From Candidatus Zixiibacteriota bacterium (lineage in GTDB: Bacteria > Zixibacteria > MSB-5A5 > GN15 > FEB-12): 64,000 nt of DNA. The DNA is taken from positions 372,001 through 436,000 of the forward strand of contig JAGNLV010000004.1 in assembly GCA_017999435.1 (NCBI GenBank). The letters are read 5' to 3'. Of the stretch, positions 58,079 to 64,000 are shown piece after piece. The notes below the pieces were generated by a model. The model worked only from the letters and a program-made list of their open reading frames with translations. It did not search any database and had not been told where the DNA came from. The translations under genes were made by a program, and so were the position numbers. Positions within the stretch are counted from its first letter, which is position 1. Each line of letters begins with the position of its first letter.

Positions 58079-58119
58079 CCCGGTACAATCGGAAAACCGT
58101 GCTCCGGAGATGTGGGTGT

Positions 58120-60483
58120 ATGCGCCGAGGTGAGCAAGTTGTGATGGTTCTTCTGTGTGCGATCGCGGCGGTTCTGTCTGTGGCCGCGCCGGCCGGGTCG
58201 GTCACTGTCCGCCTGGGCTATTTCGAGGCGGGGGAACACCCCCTGCACTATGTGCTTCGCGACGAATTCATCCGCCAGCTGGAGAACATGGCCCCGGCCG
58301 ACACGCAGTTCGTATTCATTCCGAACGGCTACCGGTCGGCCTCGTGGATACGGGACAGCAGCCGGGTGATGGCGGCGAGCCTGGCGCGCCAGGGGGGGAT
58401 TGACATACTGGTGGCGATCGGACCGTGGGTGGTCGAGGACCTTCTCGCGGCCGGCTACGCGGGGCCGATTCTCGGGGTGCGACAGATCGATCCGTTCGGC
58501 GCCGGGCTGATCGACTCCGGCGGGCGGCCCGCGGCGCCCAACCTGACGGTGCAGGACATGCCGGGGAAGATCGAGGACGATATCGGCGTGCTGCGGGCGA
58601 TCGCGCCGGTGAAGAAGCTCGGAGTGCTGTGGTTCGACACGGGGCCGGAGCGGGATTCGATCATCGCGCGGGCGGAGCGGCTGGGCGCACAGGCCGGGTT
58701 CGAAACGGTGACGGCGGACGGCTACGACGTGAACGGTACCTATGCCTTCTTCAAGGCGTTTTCCGCGCTGCCGCCGGATATCGACGGTCTGTATATCGGG
58801 CCGACCTGGGGAATGACCGTCACCGAGGCCGCCGATTTCTTCCGCATGGTGATGGGCCGGAAAGTCCCCCTCATGACGTGGGAGGGGCGGTACCAGGTCA
58901 CGCGGGGGGCGTTCGCGACCAACTACGCCTATGGGCTGGTTTCGGAGGCGCATTTCCAGGCGCTCAAGGCGCTGCGGATCGCGCGCGGCGAGCGGCCGGC
59001 CGATCTCCCGGTCCGGTTCCGGGGCGGGTCGGCGCTGGCGCTCAGCGGTCCGGCGATCCGGCGGCTCGAACTGCAGGTGCCGGCCGAGGCGCTGCTGTCG
59101 GGCGAACTGATCGACGACGAACCGCCGCCGGCGACCGAATGGTACACGCTGGCCGATGCGGTGGGGCGGGCCCTGCGGAGCAATCCGTCCTACCTGGCGA
59201 CCTACGATGCGATCGAGGCGGCGGTGCAGGGCGCCCGGGCGGCCGGGGCCGGGTACCTTCCGCAGGTGTCAGTCGAGGGGCAGGCCGGGGTGGTCGATCA
59301 CCACACCACCCACAACACGGTCGAACCGCTGGGGCGGCAACAGGCGCGCGCTTCGCTGGTACTCGACCAGACGATCTTCTCGCCGGCGCTGCTGAAGGCG
59401 CGGAAAGCGGCGGGGCAGCAGGAACGGGTGGCCGCCGCGGCCCAGCGCCAGGCGCGCCTCGATCTGGAACTCGCGGTCGAAACCGCCTGCCTCGGATACT
59501 TGCAGGCGCTCGACGAGCAGCGGGTGGAGCGGCGCTACCGGGAGCTGGTCGAGCGGACGCTCGAGTATGCGGCGGCCGAGTTCTACCTTCGGGATGAACG
59601 CGAGCCCGACCTGTCGCGCTGGCAGGACGAGCGCAACGACGCCATCACGCGGGTGCTGGAGGCGGAGAACAACGTGTACACCGGCCGCGTGCTATTGAAT
59701 CTGCTGTTCAACCTTCCGCCGGAGCGGCCGGTGGCGCTGGACACGAACCTGGTGACGGCCCGGCAGGTGGTGGGCGCCGATTACGAGGCCCTCTCCCCGC
59801 TGGCGGTTCAGCCGGACCGGCGGCAGCAGTTCGAATCATACCTCGTCGATCAGGCGCGGGCGGCCAGCCCGACGCTGGCCGGCGAGGATGCCCGGCTGGA
59901 GGTGCAGCGGACGCGGGTGGACGAGGCGACGGCCAGGCGATGGCCGACGCTTGATCTGCGGGCGGCGTTCAATATCGCCGACGAGATCGACGACGATCGG
60001 GGGATCATCGACGAGCGCACCGACACCTGGTCGGTGTTCGGGCGGATGAAACTGCCGCTGTATCTCGGCGGGGCGGTGGGGAAGGAACGGGCGCGGCTCA
60101 AAGCGAGCCTGAGCGAGATGGAGTATCGGCGGGATGCGCGGCTGCTGGAGGTCATGGCGAACATCCGGCGCGAGACCGGACGGTTGATCACGAATATTGC
60201 CGCGCTCACCCGCCACGGGCGGTCGGTTGAACTGGCGCTCCACGCCATGGGGCTGATCATCAACGACTACGAGGCGGGAAAACGGGATATGACGGCGTTG
60301 CTGGAGGCCTACCGCCACGCCCGCACCGCCGAGCTGACCGCTATCGGGACGCGCTATGAGTATCTGCGGGCGATGGCGCGGCTCGTCCACACCGTGGGCT
60401 GGTCCCCCTCGGAGAACCTGCGGGCTTTTCCCGAGGAGTTCCGGGAGCGGGCGCGGGAGGGACTGGCGCCGGCGGGGCAGTAG
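58120..60483 (+). CDS. Fusion of an ABC-type substrate-binding domain and a TolC-like outer-membrane protein
   Basis: A 787-residue exported protein. After a signal peptide (about 8-28) residues 30-315 match the ABC_sub_bind family (PF04392): FEAGEHPLHYVLRDEF, DILVAIGPWVVEDLLAAGY, IDGLYIGPTWGM and the closing LELQVPAEALLSGELI. Residues 325-780 read as a TolC-type outer-membrane factor: WYTLADAVGRALRSNPSYLA at its start, SVEGQAGVV, two long coiled-coil repeats with RARLKASLSEMEYRRDARLLEV, and NDYEAGKRDMTALLEAYR near the end. Substrate capture and trans-envelope efflux would thus be joined in one chain. ATG 58120 is used; MLRRCGC upstream is also open. No transporter pump gene is adjacent in the window. 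Confidence 0.85.
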   Translation: MRRGEQVVMVLLCAIAAVLSVAAPAGSVTVRLGYFEAGEHPLHYVLRDEFIRQLENMAPADTQFVFIPNGYRSASWIRDSSRVMAASLARQGGIDILVAIGPWVVEDLLAAGYAGPILGVRQIDPFGAGLIDSGGRPAAPNLTVQDMPGKIEDDIGVLRAIAPVKKLGVLWFDTGPERDSIIARAERLGAQAGFETVTADGYDVNGTYAFFKAFSALPPDIDGLYIGPTWGMTVTEAADFFRMVMGRKVPLMTWEGRYQVTRGAFATNYAYGLVSEAHFQALKALRIARGERPADLPVRFRGGSALALSGPAIRRLELQVPAEALLSGELIDDEPPPATEWYTLADAVGRALRSNPSYLATYDAIEAAVQGARAAGAGYLPQVSVEGQAGVVDHHTTHNTVEPLGRQQARASLVLDQTIFSPALLKARKAAGQQERVAAAAQRQARLDLELAVETACLGYLQALDEQRVERRYRELVERTLEYAAAEFYLRDEREPDLSRWQDERNDAITRVLEAENNVYTGRVLLNLLFNLPPERPVALDTNLVTARQVVGADYEALSPLAVQPDRRQQFESYLVDQARAASPTLAGEDARLEVQRTRVDEATARRWPTLDLRAAFNIADEIDDDRGIIDERTDTWSVFGRMKLPLYLGGAVGKERARLKASLSEMEYRRDARLLEVMANIRRETGRLITNIAALTRHGRSVELALHAMGLIINDYEAGKRDMTALLEAYRHARTAELTAIGTRYEYLRAMARLVHTVGWSPSENLRAFPEEFRERAREGLAPAGQ

Positions 60484-60634: not shown

Positions 60635-60666
60635 AAAAAAGAAGGAGAGCCCGCGGGCTCTCCTTC
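60635..60666 (-). terminator. Intrinsic terminator of the hexaheme cytochrome gene
   Basis: A near-perfect 11-12 bp stem GAAGGAGAGCC / GGCTCTCCTTC (60641-60651 and 60656-60666), CGCG loop, then TTTTTT on the minus strand (60640-60635), 24 bp after the cytochrome stop codon. The 206-bp gap 60484-60689 contains nothing else. Confidence 0.92.
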
Positions 60667-60689: not shown

Positions 60690-61739
60690 TCACGGAGCCT
60701 GCACGTGGCACTGACCGCAGAGGATCTTGTAGTTGGTGCCGTCACCGTTCTCGCCCGGGTTGGCTTCGCCGGTGGCCCAGATGAGACCGAAGGCGCGGGT
60801 GTTGCCGTGCGCCTTGTGGCAGCTCATGCAGCTCGGGGTGAGCGTAGTCGGAGCGCCGGTCCAGGCCGCGCCCCAGGTGCCCCAGTTGCCGGTCGCCGAC
60901 ATGACCTGCACGCGGTAGGCCTGGCCGGTGAACTTGCTGAGGCTGGAGTGCCCGCCGGTGAGAGCGCCGATGTTGGCATCCGCGGTGGGGTGGCGCAGCC
61001 ACTCGGTCTGCGTCGGAGCGGCCGTGTTGCGCATGTTGGCGCTGCTCGACGAACCGTGGAAGTCGGTGTGGCACTGCTGGCAGAACGCGCCGTAGCCGGA
61101 CGCGGTCACGTTCGGCTCGTTGAACTGAACATTCTGCATATCATAGTGATTGCCGCCGTAGGTCGCGGACAGCTCGAAGATGTCCTTCGTCAGATCGTTG
61201 GTCCCGATGGCGTAGGTCATGTACGGGGTCGCCGGAGTGCCGTTGATGAAGATGTTGGCGTTCCGGTAGATGCTCTGACCGCCGGAGGTGCGACCGTGCT
61301 GCGTGTGGCAGTCGATGCAATTCAGACCGTGGTCATTGCTGAACGTGCCGCCCGGAGCCACGTCGGTCGAGCCGAGCGTGTGGCCGGCAGCGTCGTAGTA
61401 GGGAGCGACGTTGTCGCGGTTCAGGGCGCCCGCCTGGCGACCGTTGGCCGTCACGTTGCCGCCGTTCTCCGCCAGGACATCCGGAGCAAACGTCTGGTTG
61501 TCATGGCACGAGAGGCAGAGCGTGTTGACCTCGTTGCGCAGCAGGAAATGATAAGGACCATCGGCCCCAAGCCCGACCGTGATGCCGGAACCGTCGGCAT
61601 TGTAGCCGTGGGTCTGGCTGTAGTGCATCACGTGGCACTCGGCGCAGTTGAGGGTCGTGCCGGTGTGGTAGTCGCCGGCCAGCGCACCGCCGGCCAGAAG
61701 CGCCACCGCGGCAACTCCGAGCAGGAAGACAGTCTTCAT
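60690..61739 (-). CDS. Hexaheme c-type cytochrome, OmcS-like (extracellular electron transfer candidate)
   Basis: A 349-residue exported cytochrome: a signal peptide (1-21) and exactly six CxxCH motifs at 32-36, 75-79, 141-145, 220-224, 304-308 and 341-345. Order and surroundings resemble Geobacter OmcS as I recall it: a histidine before heme 1 (YHTG), CAECHVMH at heme 1, GHTLGSTDVAPGGT before heme 3, CHTDFHG then RHP after heme 4, CMSCHKAH at heme 5, and the last heme 4 residues from the end. Twelve further histidines (for example H25, H39, H64, H120, H228, H250, H311) could supply distal ligands. OmcS itself is about 430 residues. ATG 61739 has GGAGGAAAG upstream. A CRP/FNR-type site lies upstream and DsbD is encoded in the same window. 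Confidence 0.88.
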   Translation of the reverse strand: MKTVFLLGVAAVALLAGGALAGDYHTGTTLNCAECHVMHYSQTHGYNADGSGITVGLGADGPYHFLLRNEVNTLCLSCHDNQTFAPDVLAENGGNVTANGRQAGALNRDNVAPYYDAAGHTLGSTDVAPGGTFSNDHGLNCIDCHTQHGRTSGGQSIYRNANIFINGTPATPYMTYAIGTNDLTKDIFELSATYGGNHYDMQNVQFNEPNVTASGYGAFCQQCHTDFHGSSSSANMRNTAAPTQTEWLRHPTADANIGALTGGHSSLSKFTGQAYRVQVMSATGNWGTWGAAWTGAPTTLTPSCMSCHKAHGNTRAFGLIWATGEANPGENGDGTNYKILCGQCHVQAP

Positions 61740-62180: not shown

Positions 62181-63170
62181 TTAGTCGATCACAAAGCGTT
62201 GGACGCGACCACCGGCTCGCTCCAGAACGTAAAACGCGGTACCATTGAAGGCAATATCCCCAGGGTAGCGAAACTCCCCCGGCTTCAGGCCGAAACCGCC
62301 GACGAACGCCAGAAACGCTCCGTTCGGACGGTACACCTTGACCACCTGCCGCAGACCGTCGGTCACCCAAACAGTCTTCTCCCCCGCCGTGTCGGTCATG
62401 ACAGCGATGCCAGAGGGGAAGGACAGGTCGGCCCGGTCGACATCGTGGCCGGCAAAACCGCGGAGGTACCGGCCGGAGAGATCGAAGAGTTTCACGGCCG
62501 GCTCGGCGTAGAGGTCGGTTACGTAGAGGGTGCTGTCATCGACGGTGAGGGCCATGATGGTGCGGAACGGGGACTGGGCGGGGTCATCGACGCCGATAGT
62601 CCGCTCCAGGGCGAAAGTCTGATCAAGGATGAGCACCCCCGCGACGTCGCCGGCGGTCGCCACGATGGTGCGGTCGCCGGGTCCGAGGGCAACCGCCTGC
62701 GGGCGGAGGGAGAGCGCCGTATCGCCCAGCAGGAGGTCGAGGCGGAGGCGTTCGAGCAGGGCGCCGCGAAAATCGAGCACGTCGAGACACTCGCTGTGGG
62801 TGTCGATGAGGATGATCTCGCCGCGGCTGTTGACCACCAGGTCCCGCGGCTGCCCCTTTACGGCCCGCCCGCTCGCGGGGTCGGGGACGAAGTGGAGAAA
62901 CGAGTACTTGGGCTGGAGGAGGGCGTCGTAGACGACGACGCGGTTGTTGCCGGCATCGGCGACGAACACTTCCTGCGCGTGGGGGTCGACGAAGAGGGCC
63001 ATGGGGCTGCGGAGCGGCTGGTCCCAGCCGTCATCGGCCGCCAGCGCGGTGATCGAGATGCGGGCGTTGAGCTCGTCGCCGGCGCTCTGCGCGCTCGCGG
63101 AGGGGGCGGCGCCCGCCAGGAGGGCGGCGAGGGCGGCGCCGGGCAGGCAAAGAAGGCGGTTACGGTTCAT
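62181..63170 (-). CDS. NHL-type beta-propeller protein, exported
   Basis: A 329-residue protein with a signal peptide (MNRNRLLCLPGAALAALLAG, then ASA-Q) and six NHL/SMP-30-like propeller repeats, for example LRSPMALFVDPHAQEVFVAD, NRVVVYDALL, GQPRDLVVNSRGEIILIDT, FPSGIAVMTDTAGEKTVWVTD and FRYPGDIAFNGTAFYVLE. No catalytic motif. It overlaps the end of the preceding lipoprotein gene by 11 nt, and lies upstream of the cytochrome gene. As I recall, NHL-repeat proteins are also encoded beside omcS in Geobacter, which would strengthen the link, but this needs checking. Likely acts in the periplasm or at the surface. Confidence 0.82.
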   Translation of the reverse strand: MNRNRLLCLPGAALAALLAGAAPSASAQSAGDELNARISITALAADDGWDQPLRSPMALFVDPHAQEVFVADAGNNRVVVYDALLQPKYSFLHFVPDPASGRAVKGQPRDLVVNSRGEIILIDTHSECLDVLDFRGALLERLRLDLLLGDTALSLRPQAVALGPGDRTIVATAGDVAGVLILDQTFALERTIGVDDPAQSPFRTIMALTVDDSTLYVTDLYAEPAVKLFDLSGRYLRGFAGHDVDRADLSFPSGIAVMTDTAGEKTVWVTDGLRQVVKVYRPNGAFLAFVGGFGLKPGEFRYPGDIAFNGTAFYVLERAGGRVQRFVID

Positions 63171-63741
63171 GGAACAGCCCGCCGATTTCGGCGACCGTTT
63201 TCTTGACCATCGCCAGAGCCAACTGGTCGGCGGAGCGGATGGCGCCGATGCCGAACACGATCTCGCCCTTGTCCCCGCGGCCGTTGTTCGCGGCCACCCA
63301 CACGGTTTCACCGGTCTTGCCGTCGAGCAGACGGCAGTTGTAGGAGACCGTGGGGACTACCCCGAGGAAGCGGTCGTCGCGCTGGTCGAACTCGAGCACC
63401 GATCCGACCAGGAGGTAGTCCAAACGGAGCAGGGCGCAGAGGCTGTCGATTTCGGCGCGCGTGATGCGGGTGGCGGAACGGATGCGGTACTGGCGGAGGC
63501 CGGCGTAGACGTCGCCGTGCTCGGCCAGGTCGATGCGGCCGAGACCGGCGAGGAGGGTCTGGAAGTGGGAGGTGACGATTTCGGCGGCGCTCTCGGTTCC
63601 GCTGAGGTTTTCAAACGGCAGAACCGCAACCCGGGCGCCGGCCGGGAGGAGTTCCTCGACGCGCGGGACGGCGGTCATCTGGGAGGCGCAGCCGCCCAGC
63701 ACAAGCATCAAGCCGGCGAGCAGGAGGCGAAAGAGTGCCAC
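63160..63741 (-). CDS. Lipoprotein with CsgG/LpoB-like domain
   Basis: A 193-residue lipoprotein. A signal peptide ends in the lipobox LGGC, followed by a CsgG/LpoB/FlgO-like fold: RVAVLPFENLSGTESAAEIV, LRLDYLLVGSVLEFD and RLLDGKTGETVWVAAN. GTG 63741 with GAGG 7 nt upstream is chosen, 4 nt after the stop of the preceding lipoprotein gene; an earlier in-frame TTG would overlap it. Family members act in outer-membrane secretion or envelope assembly. It overlaps the NHL gene, so the three are probably one transcript. Confidence 0.78.
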   Translation of the reverse strand: MALFRLLLAGLMLVLGGCASQMTAVPRVEELLPAGARVAVLPFENLSGTESAAEIVTSHFQTLLAGLGRIDLAEHGDVYAGLRQYRIRSATRITRAEIDSLCALLRLDYLLVGSVLEFDQRDDRFLGVVPTVSYNCRLLDGKTGETVWVAANNGRGDKGEIVFGIGAIRSADQLALAMVKKTVAEIGGLFHEP

Positions 63742-63745
63742 GGCG

Positions 63746-64000
63746 CTACCTCGCAATCTGTCCGAAGGCGCCGGCGACTTCCCGGCACACCTTGGTGGTC
63801 ATCTCCCCCAGCGTGTGGGTTTCGCCGAAGGAGAAGATGGGGAATTTGGGCCCCCCCTTGCGGCTGGTCTCGTAGGACCAGACGACCGCGCCGGTTTGGC
63901 AGTCGACAAAGCGGACGATGACGGCGACGAGGGGGAATTCAGTCTGGCCGGAGCGGACCATGCCGTACTGGGAGACGGCGCCGACGAAGATTCCCTCGAC
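63746..64000 (-). CDS. CsgG-like lipoprotein, N-terminus beyond window edge
   Basis: The C-terminal 84 residues of a protein whose start is outside the window. Readable segments: GIFVGAVSQYGMVRSG, FPLVAVIVRFVDCQTGAVVWSYETS, and a closing helix MTTKVCREVAGAFGQIAR. The RFVDCQTGAVVW pattern is the same as RLLDGKTGETVW in the adjacent lipoprotein, so it is probably a paralogue with the CsgG-like fold. It precedes that gene by 4 nt, in an apparent operon. Confidence 0.65.
   Translation of the reverse strand, partial: VEGIFVGAVSQYGMVRSGQTEFPLVAVIVRFVDCQTGAVVWSYETSRKGGPKFPIFSFGETHTLGEMTTKVCREVAGAFGQIAR

Follow-up and report, generated by a model that had tools for sequence, protein, structure and literature searches.

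A short OmcS-fold hexahaem cytochrome of Zixibacteria, encoded at the end of an osc-type gene cluster

Does a hexahaem cytochrome gene from a Candidatus Zixiibacteriota genome encode a subunit of extracellular filaments of the OmcS kind, or a cytochrome with another task? The gene lies in a window of 64,000 nucleotides (the whole stretch of DNA that was analysed; contig JAGNLV010000004.1, positions 372,001 to 436,000). The original prediction, made from the letters alone, had proposed a signal peptide, six CxxCH motifs and an OmcS-like order of histidines for its product, here called P0001. The features of the gene, in window coordinates, are as follows.

60690..61739, minus strand: OmcS-like hexahaem cytochrome P0001, 349 aa (coordinates include the stop)
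About residues 1-21 of P0001: Sec signal, MKTVFLLGVAAVALLAGGALA followed by GDYH, with the mature protein starting at G22 (by eye)
61632..61646, minus strand: haem 1 motif CAECH
61623..61625, minus strand: codon of His39, the equivalent of OmcS His16
61503..61517, minus strand: haem 2 motif CLSCH
61305..61319, minus strand: haem 3 motif CIDCH
61068..61082, minus strand: haem 4 motif CQQCH
60816..60830, minus strand: haem 5 motif CMSCH
60705..60719, minus strand: haem 6 motif CGQCH, at the C-terminus

The translated minus-strand ORF begins with the Sec-type signal that had been predicted and contains exactly six CxxCH motifs in its 349 residues, the last of them four residues before the C-terminus. 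The more specific motifs that had been listed are all present as well: YHTG before haem 1, CAECHVMH, GHTLGSTDVAPGGT before haem 3, CHTDFH and RHP around haem 4, CMSCHKAH, and a haem 6 near the C-terminus. Across the window, a degenerate haem pattern was observed seven times (2.1 expected from shuffles; none of 100 shuffles reached seven), and six of these seven matches lie in frame within the P0001 ORF.

A single-sequence phmmer search of the PDB with P0001 did not find OmcS, and a profile was needed. With a profile of 21 relatives, OmcS was found with an E-value of 1.4e-7 (next entry 0.042); with a profile of 98 relatives (alignment A3) it was again first, with 1.6e-28, and led the next entry (2.7e-7) by 21 orders of magnitude. 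The homology to OmcS that had been claimed is thus borne out. The OmcS query sequence used in this work is identical to PDB 6EF8 across 407 residues. The monomer predicted by AlphaFold2 from the 98-sequence alignment has a pLDDT of 89.9 and a pTM of 0.87, and OmcS was the sole significant match to this model in Foldseek (E 2.5e-7). VIA-align superimposed 249 residues of the model on OmcS at 3.5 A (Z 13.7), followed by Mtr (Z 5.5) and OmcE (Z 3.9), in a comparison that covered few chains and did not include OmcZ. OmcE as the closest relative was ruled out by its profile E-value (6e-7 versus 1.6e-28 for OmcS) together with its Z of 3.9. Membership of P0001 in an OmcS-fold hexahaem family is well supported, and the OmcS fold of its monomer is predicted with confidence.

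The histidines carry the comparison further. Fourteen are invariant among 21 Zixibacteria-type homologues of the same phylum. Twelve of them, namely H25, H36, H39, H79, H120, H145, H148, H224, H250, H308, H311 and H345, are also at least 90% conserved among 98 more diverse homologues. The ligand order was compared from two separate alignments, one of 32 OmcS-group sequences and one of the 98 non-OmcS homologues. Both have the same twelve-histidine order, in which a distal and a proximal position are repeated six times (P, the His of a CxxCH).

OmcS: H2 P13 H16 P51 H110 P144 H147 P243 H257 P332 H335 P404
P0001: H25 P36 H39 P79 H120 P145 H148 P224 H250 P308 H311 P345

CxxCHxxH occurs at haems 1, 3 and 5 in the OmcS group and in the non-OmcS homologues. 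From this pattern, the twelve conserved histidines of P0001 would serve as haem ligands. The predicted OmcS-like order with a histidine after haem 1 also agrees with the separate alignments, in which H39 takes the place of OmcS His16, presumably the residue that ligates haem 5 of the neighbouring subunit. His39 is retained in 99% of 111 homologues. In OmcS, the subunit itself provides eleven axial ligands, and the twelfth, on haem 5, belongs to the neighbouring subunit (PMC6584659, PMC7096707). Blocks 21-30 and 41-50 of P0001 are highly conserved (0.79), yet their pLDDT values of 66 and 63 are the lowest in the mature monomer, a combination that would fit a contact completed by a second subunit.

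A further histidine, His44 (window 61608-61610), is invariant in the 21 Zixibacteria-type sequences, occurs in about 65% of the non-OmcS relatives and is absent from the OmcS group. It is possibly a lineage-specific ligand or contact.

A tree built by a quick method places OmcS inside a starred Geobacterales clade of 17 sequences and P0001 inside a starred Zixibacteria set of 11, apart from the OmcS group. On sequence grounds, P0001 is thus assigned to a separate lineage of the OmcS family. As an OmcS orthologue it was rejected, since in this quick tree it falls outside the Geobacter OmcS/OmcT clade. One Geobacteraceae genome (G132) carries genes of both the OmcS group and the P0001 group. According to the MAG records, relatives span about a dozen phyla: Zixibacteria, Eisenbacteria, Latescibacterota, Krumholzibacteriota, Planctomycetota, Armatimonadota, Gemmatimonadota, Acidobacteriota, Myxococcota, Nitrospirota, Nitrospinota and Thermodesulfobacteriota. 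The named relatives support the earlier view that the window comes from a Zixibacteria-type genome. A tblastn search against plasmids gave no match and thus no sign of plasmid carriage.

Two relatives are singular. In a record titled Ignavibacterium sp. (L039), the gene is as in L009, with the same profile score and ORF length; L009 belongs to the same order as the window's genome, and L039 is probably a mislabelled MAG. At L096:1047-6632, an ORF of 1862 residues joins an OmcS-like hexahaem domain to fibronectin-like repeats and to a further hexahaem domain, of the kind found beside the barrel gene. This fusion protein is possibly a wire cap, and it indicates that the OmcS fold can serve in non-homopolymeric proteins.

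P0001 is the last gene of a minus-strand cluster which, in the order of transcription, encodes a small secreted protein, a 42-haem cytochrome, an NHL protein, two hexahaem proteins, a beta-barrel, two lipoproteins, a second NHL protein and P0001, and which is followed by a terminator-like hairpin. The features of the cluster that were located are listed below.

60644..60663, minus strand: GGAGAGCCCGCGGGCTCTCC, hairpin and T run just past the P0001 stop (read from the sequence)
62181..63170, minus strand: NHL-repeat beta-propeller NHL1, OscK-like (Pfam NHL, E 8.5e-8; Geobacterales OscK, E 7e-7)
63160..63756, minus strand: lipoprotein with LpoB/GNA1162-type similarity, OscG counterpart
63749..64000, minus strand: OscF counterpart, with an ORF that runs beyond the window to about 64375
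69255-72602 in window coordinates, past the window end (G000:C4:441255-444602): 42-haem cytochrome

The hairpin is likely an intrinsic terminator that closes the cluster. The cluster was compared with two Geobacterales omcS loci (L139 and L141), whose genes were assigned Osc names from their order, haem counts and domains; the naming and the proposed roles follow PMC13194489 (citing Shen et al. 2025) and PMC12977616. The two lipoproteins match their Geobacterales counterparts OscF and OscG with E-values of 6e-19 and 1e-17, the two NHL proteins match OscK with 7e-7 and 2e-4, and the gene order OscE-OscF-OscG is conserved. By profile comparison, the barrel matches OscE with 95.7% probability (E 9e-9, 460 columns), and its structure model is a beta-barrel with about 28 long predicted strands. 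OscD, the propeller of the osc locus, had no match in the cluster, to which this search was confined. Neither did OscH, a prolyl isomerase; the sole hit of its query was to an ORF on a different contig (E 6.7e-9). P0001 stands alone at the cluster end, as omcS does at one end of the osc cluster. That the cluster is an osc-type locus is well supported.

Similar company is found elsewhere. Of 32 loci with wide flanks, a large multihaem gene is present in 16, an OscF/G-type lipoprotein in 18 and an NHL protein in 21; several of the loci that lack these companions come from genomes with another copy elsewhere. In the phylum, a P0001 homologue was found in 22 of 132 genomes and the 42-haem protein in 19. 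Both are present in 18 genomes, the hexahaem gene alone in four and the 42-haem gene alone in one, a co-occurrence for which the Fisher p of 2e-17 overstates the case because the genomes are related.

Other genes in the neighbourhood and the genome were noted. In many Zixibacteria genomes (L143, L144, L145, L064, L071), the gene after the OmcS-like one is a paralogue with seven CxxCH motifs, which was not seen beside P0001 in the window's genome. The convergent neighbour (window 58099-60483) fuses an ABC-type substrate-binding domain (a weak match, just below the cut-off) to a TolC-type outer-membrane efflux domain. A second multihaem cluster lies at G000:C2:4600-12200, with ORFs of 668, 990, 511 and 387 residues, one of which has a NapC/NirT domain; it is a candidate for the inner-membrane side of the electron chain.

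The 42-haem protein is collinear with OscI (haems 1-26) followed by OscJ (haems 27-42), with the break between haems 26 and 27. The single-gene form, with 39-42 CxxCH motifs, occurs in Zixibacteria, Eisenbacteria, Latescibacterota, Krumholzibacteriota, Acidobacteriota and Anaeromyxobacter, and the split 26+16 form in Geobacterales, Planctomycetota, Nitrospinota and one Myxococcota MAG. A literature search pairing 42 haems with OmcS found no paper. One can picture a continuous line of haems leading outward from the inner membrane, first along a 42-haem rod of sufficient length to cross the periplasm, then through a barrel of MtrB size and two dedicated hexahaem adapters, and ending in an OmcS-like wire, with the 42-haem design (fused, or split at 26/27) being ancestral to the Geobacter OmcS system; we offer this picture tentatively and think it rather unlikely to hold as a whole. 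The conserved number raises the question of why there are exactly 42 haems.

What P0001 does with its haems can be proposed from these data. Polymerisation into extracellular filaments would be its most likely function, and a reasonably probable one, since P0001 keeps the subunit-bridging residue and its cluster keeps the export genes. The sequence cannot settle the matter, because OmcS paralogues with the same features are not known as wires: OmcT, OmcJ and OscC are not known as wire formers, and a sequence is not enough to class an OmcS-like hexahaem protein as a nanowire (PMC12977616). As a filament protein, P0001 would be exported through Sec and matured in the periplasm, and the osc-type machine encoded alongside (the OscE-like large barrel and the OscF/OscG-like lipoproteins) would move it across the outer membrane. 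Outside the cell, subunits would polymerise head to tail, with His39 of one subunit capping haem 5 of the previous one to give a continuous, presumably stacked line of bis-His haems. The 42-haem cytochrome and both accessory hexahaem proteins of the cluster would relay electrons to the wire, which would exchange them, in either direction, with minerals or partner cells.

The same data have to be weighed against other roles. P0001 may be an OscC-like accessory that acts in an outer-membrane conduit as adapter, base or cap instead of forming the repeat unit of a wire. OscC (GSU2501) is invariably found together with the secretion block (PMC12977616), and PMC13194489 gives it as a periplasmic protein; several hexahaem proteins are encoded in the Zixibacteria locus, so that not all of them need be wire subunits, and the L096 protein joins the OmcS fold to other domains. 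However, a subunit that does not polymerise would have no obvious need for His39, which nearly all relatives keep, and the position of P0001 alone at the cluster end is that of omcS, so we regard an accessory role as possible but doubtful. It is improbable that P0001 works in the periplasm alone, as an electron carrier or as part of a redox enzyme of the tri- to hexahaem type, with no extracellular role. Pfam reports only the generic multihaem profiles Paired_CXXCH_1 and Cytochrome_C7 for P0001, and a Sec signal by itself indicates only the periplasm; but NCBIfam likewise gave no family above its cut-off beyond a generic doubled-CXXCH domain, the fold match is OmcS by a wide margin, and the gene adjoins an outer-membrane export set.

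A wire, if formed, might also serve mainly for electron uptake, e.g. from Fe(II) oxidation or from partner cells, and not for electron disposal. A chain of bis-His haems can conduct either way, but the known OmcS system has been studied as a disposal route, and we consider this version very improbable. We thus retain the extracellular filament with the export path described above as the preferred reading.

The original prediction had also spoken of a lineage not generally credited with a filament-forming cytochrome. This is only partly right: porin-cytochrome operons like those of Geobacter had been predicted with FeGenie in Zixibacteria (PMC7005843), and a FeGenie paper had predicted iron cycling there (PMC8478452). 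Novelty is further limited because the osc machinery has been published as 'widespread and ancient', in the title of Shen et al. 2025 as cited in PMC13194489. The fused 42-haem protein, the lack of OscD and OscH in the cluster and the short subunit make the Zixibacteria locus a variant. If P0001 polymerises, OmcS-type wires would be common to about a dozen phyla, whose members are mostly uncultured, and not a speciality of Geobacter. The Zixibacteria version would then offer a short, distant homologue for testing the rules of subunit contact, with regard to which residues have changed and which have to be kept, above all His39. As a practical marker, the hexahaem gene combined with OscF/OscG and 42 haems should have a higher specificity than an OmcS profile by itself, which is unreliable for this purpose (PMC12977616).

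Among known systems, the OmcE filament (PDB 7TFS) is built on a line of bis-His haems in which one His comes from another subunit (PMC9473688), a design predicted for P0001, and P0001 has a distant profile match to it; OmcE has four haems and a different fold. Among conduits, the cluster barrel most resembles MtrB of MtrAB (PDB 6R2Q; Z 18.8, 433 residues aligned), but the two have no sequence family in common and other porins follow closely (Z 17.8 downward), so that the match shows only a large barrel. With the osc cluster, the omcS companion genes GSU2501-GSU2493 (Shen et al. 2025, cited in PMC13194489 and PMC12977616), the Zixibacteria cluster shares the OscE-like barrel, OscF, OscG, the haem complement of OscI plus OscJ, OscK-like NHL proteins and OmcS-fold cytochromes. 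It differs in the fusion of OscI and OscJ, in the missing OscD and OscH, and in having two additional hexahaem proteins encoded between the NHL and barrel genes. Unlike OmcS (G. sulfurreducens GSU2504; PDB 6EF8, 6NEF), whose filament is known, P0001 is known here from its gene and a monomer model; it is shorter, as had been predicted (mature protein 328 versus 407 residues, about 80 fewer), has about 25% identity in the structural alignment, falls in a separate clade and carries, like other Zixibacteria-type sequences, the extra invariant His44. It has in common with OmcS the six CxxCH motifs in the same order, the twelve-histidine pattern, the predicted monomer fold, a haem 6 at the extreme C-terminus and the osc genes alongside.
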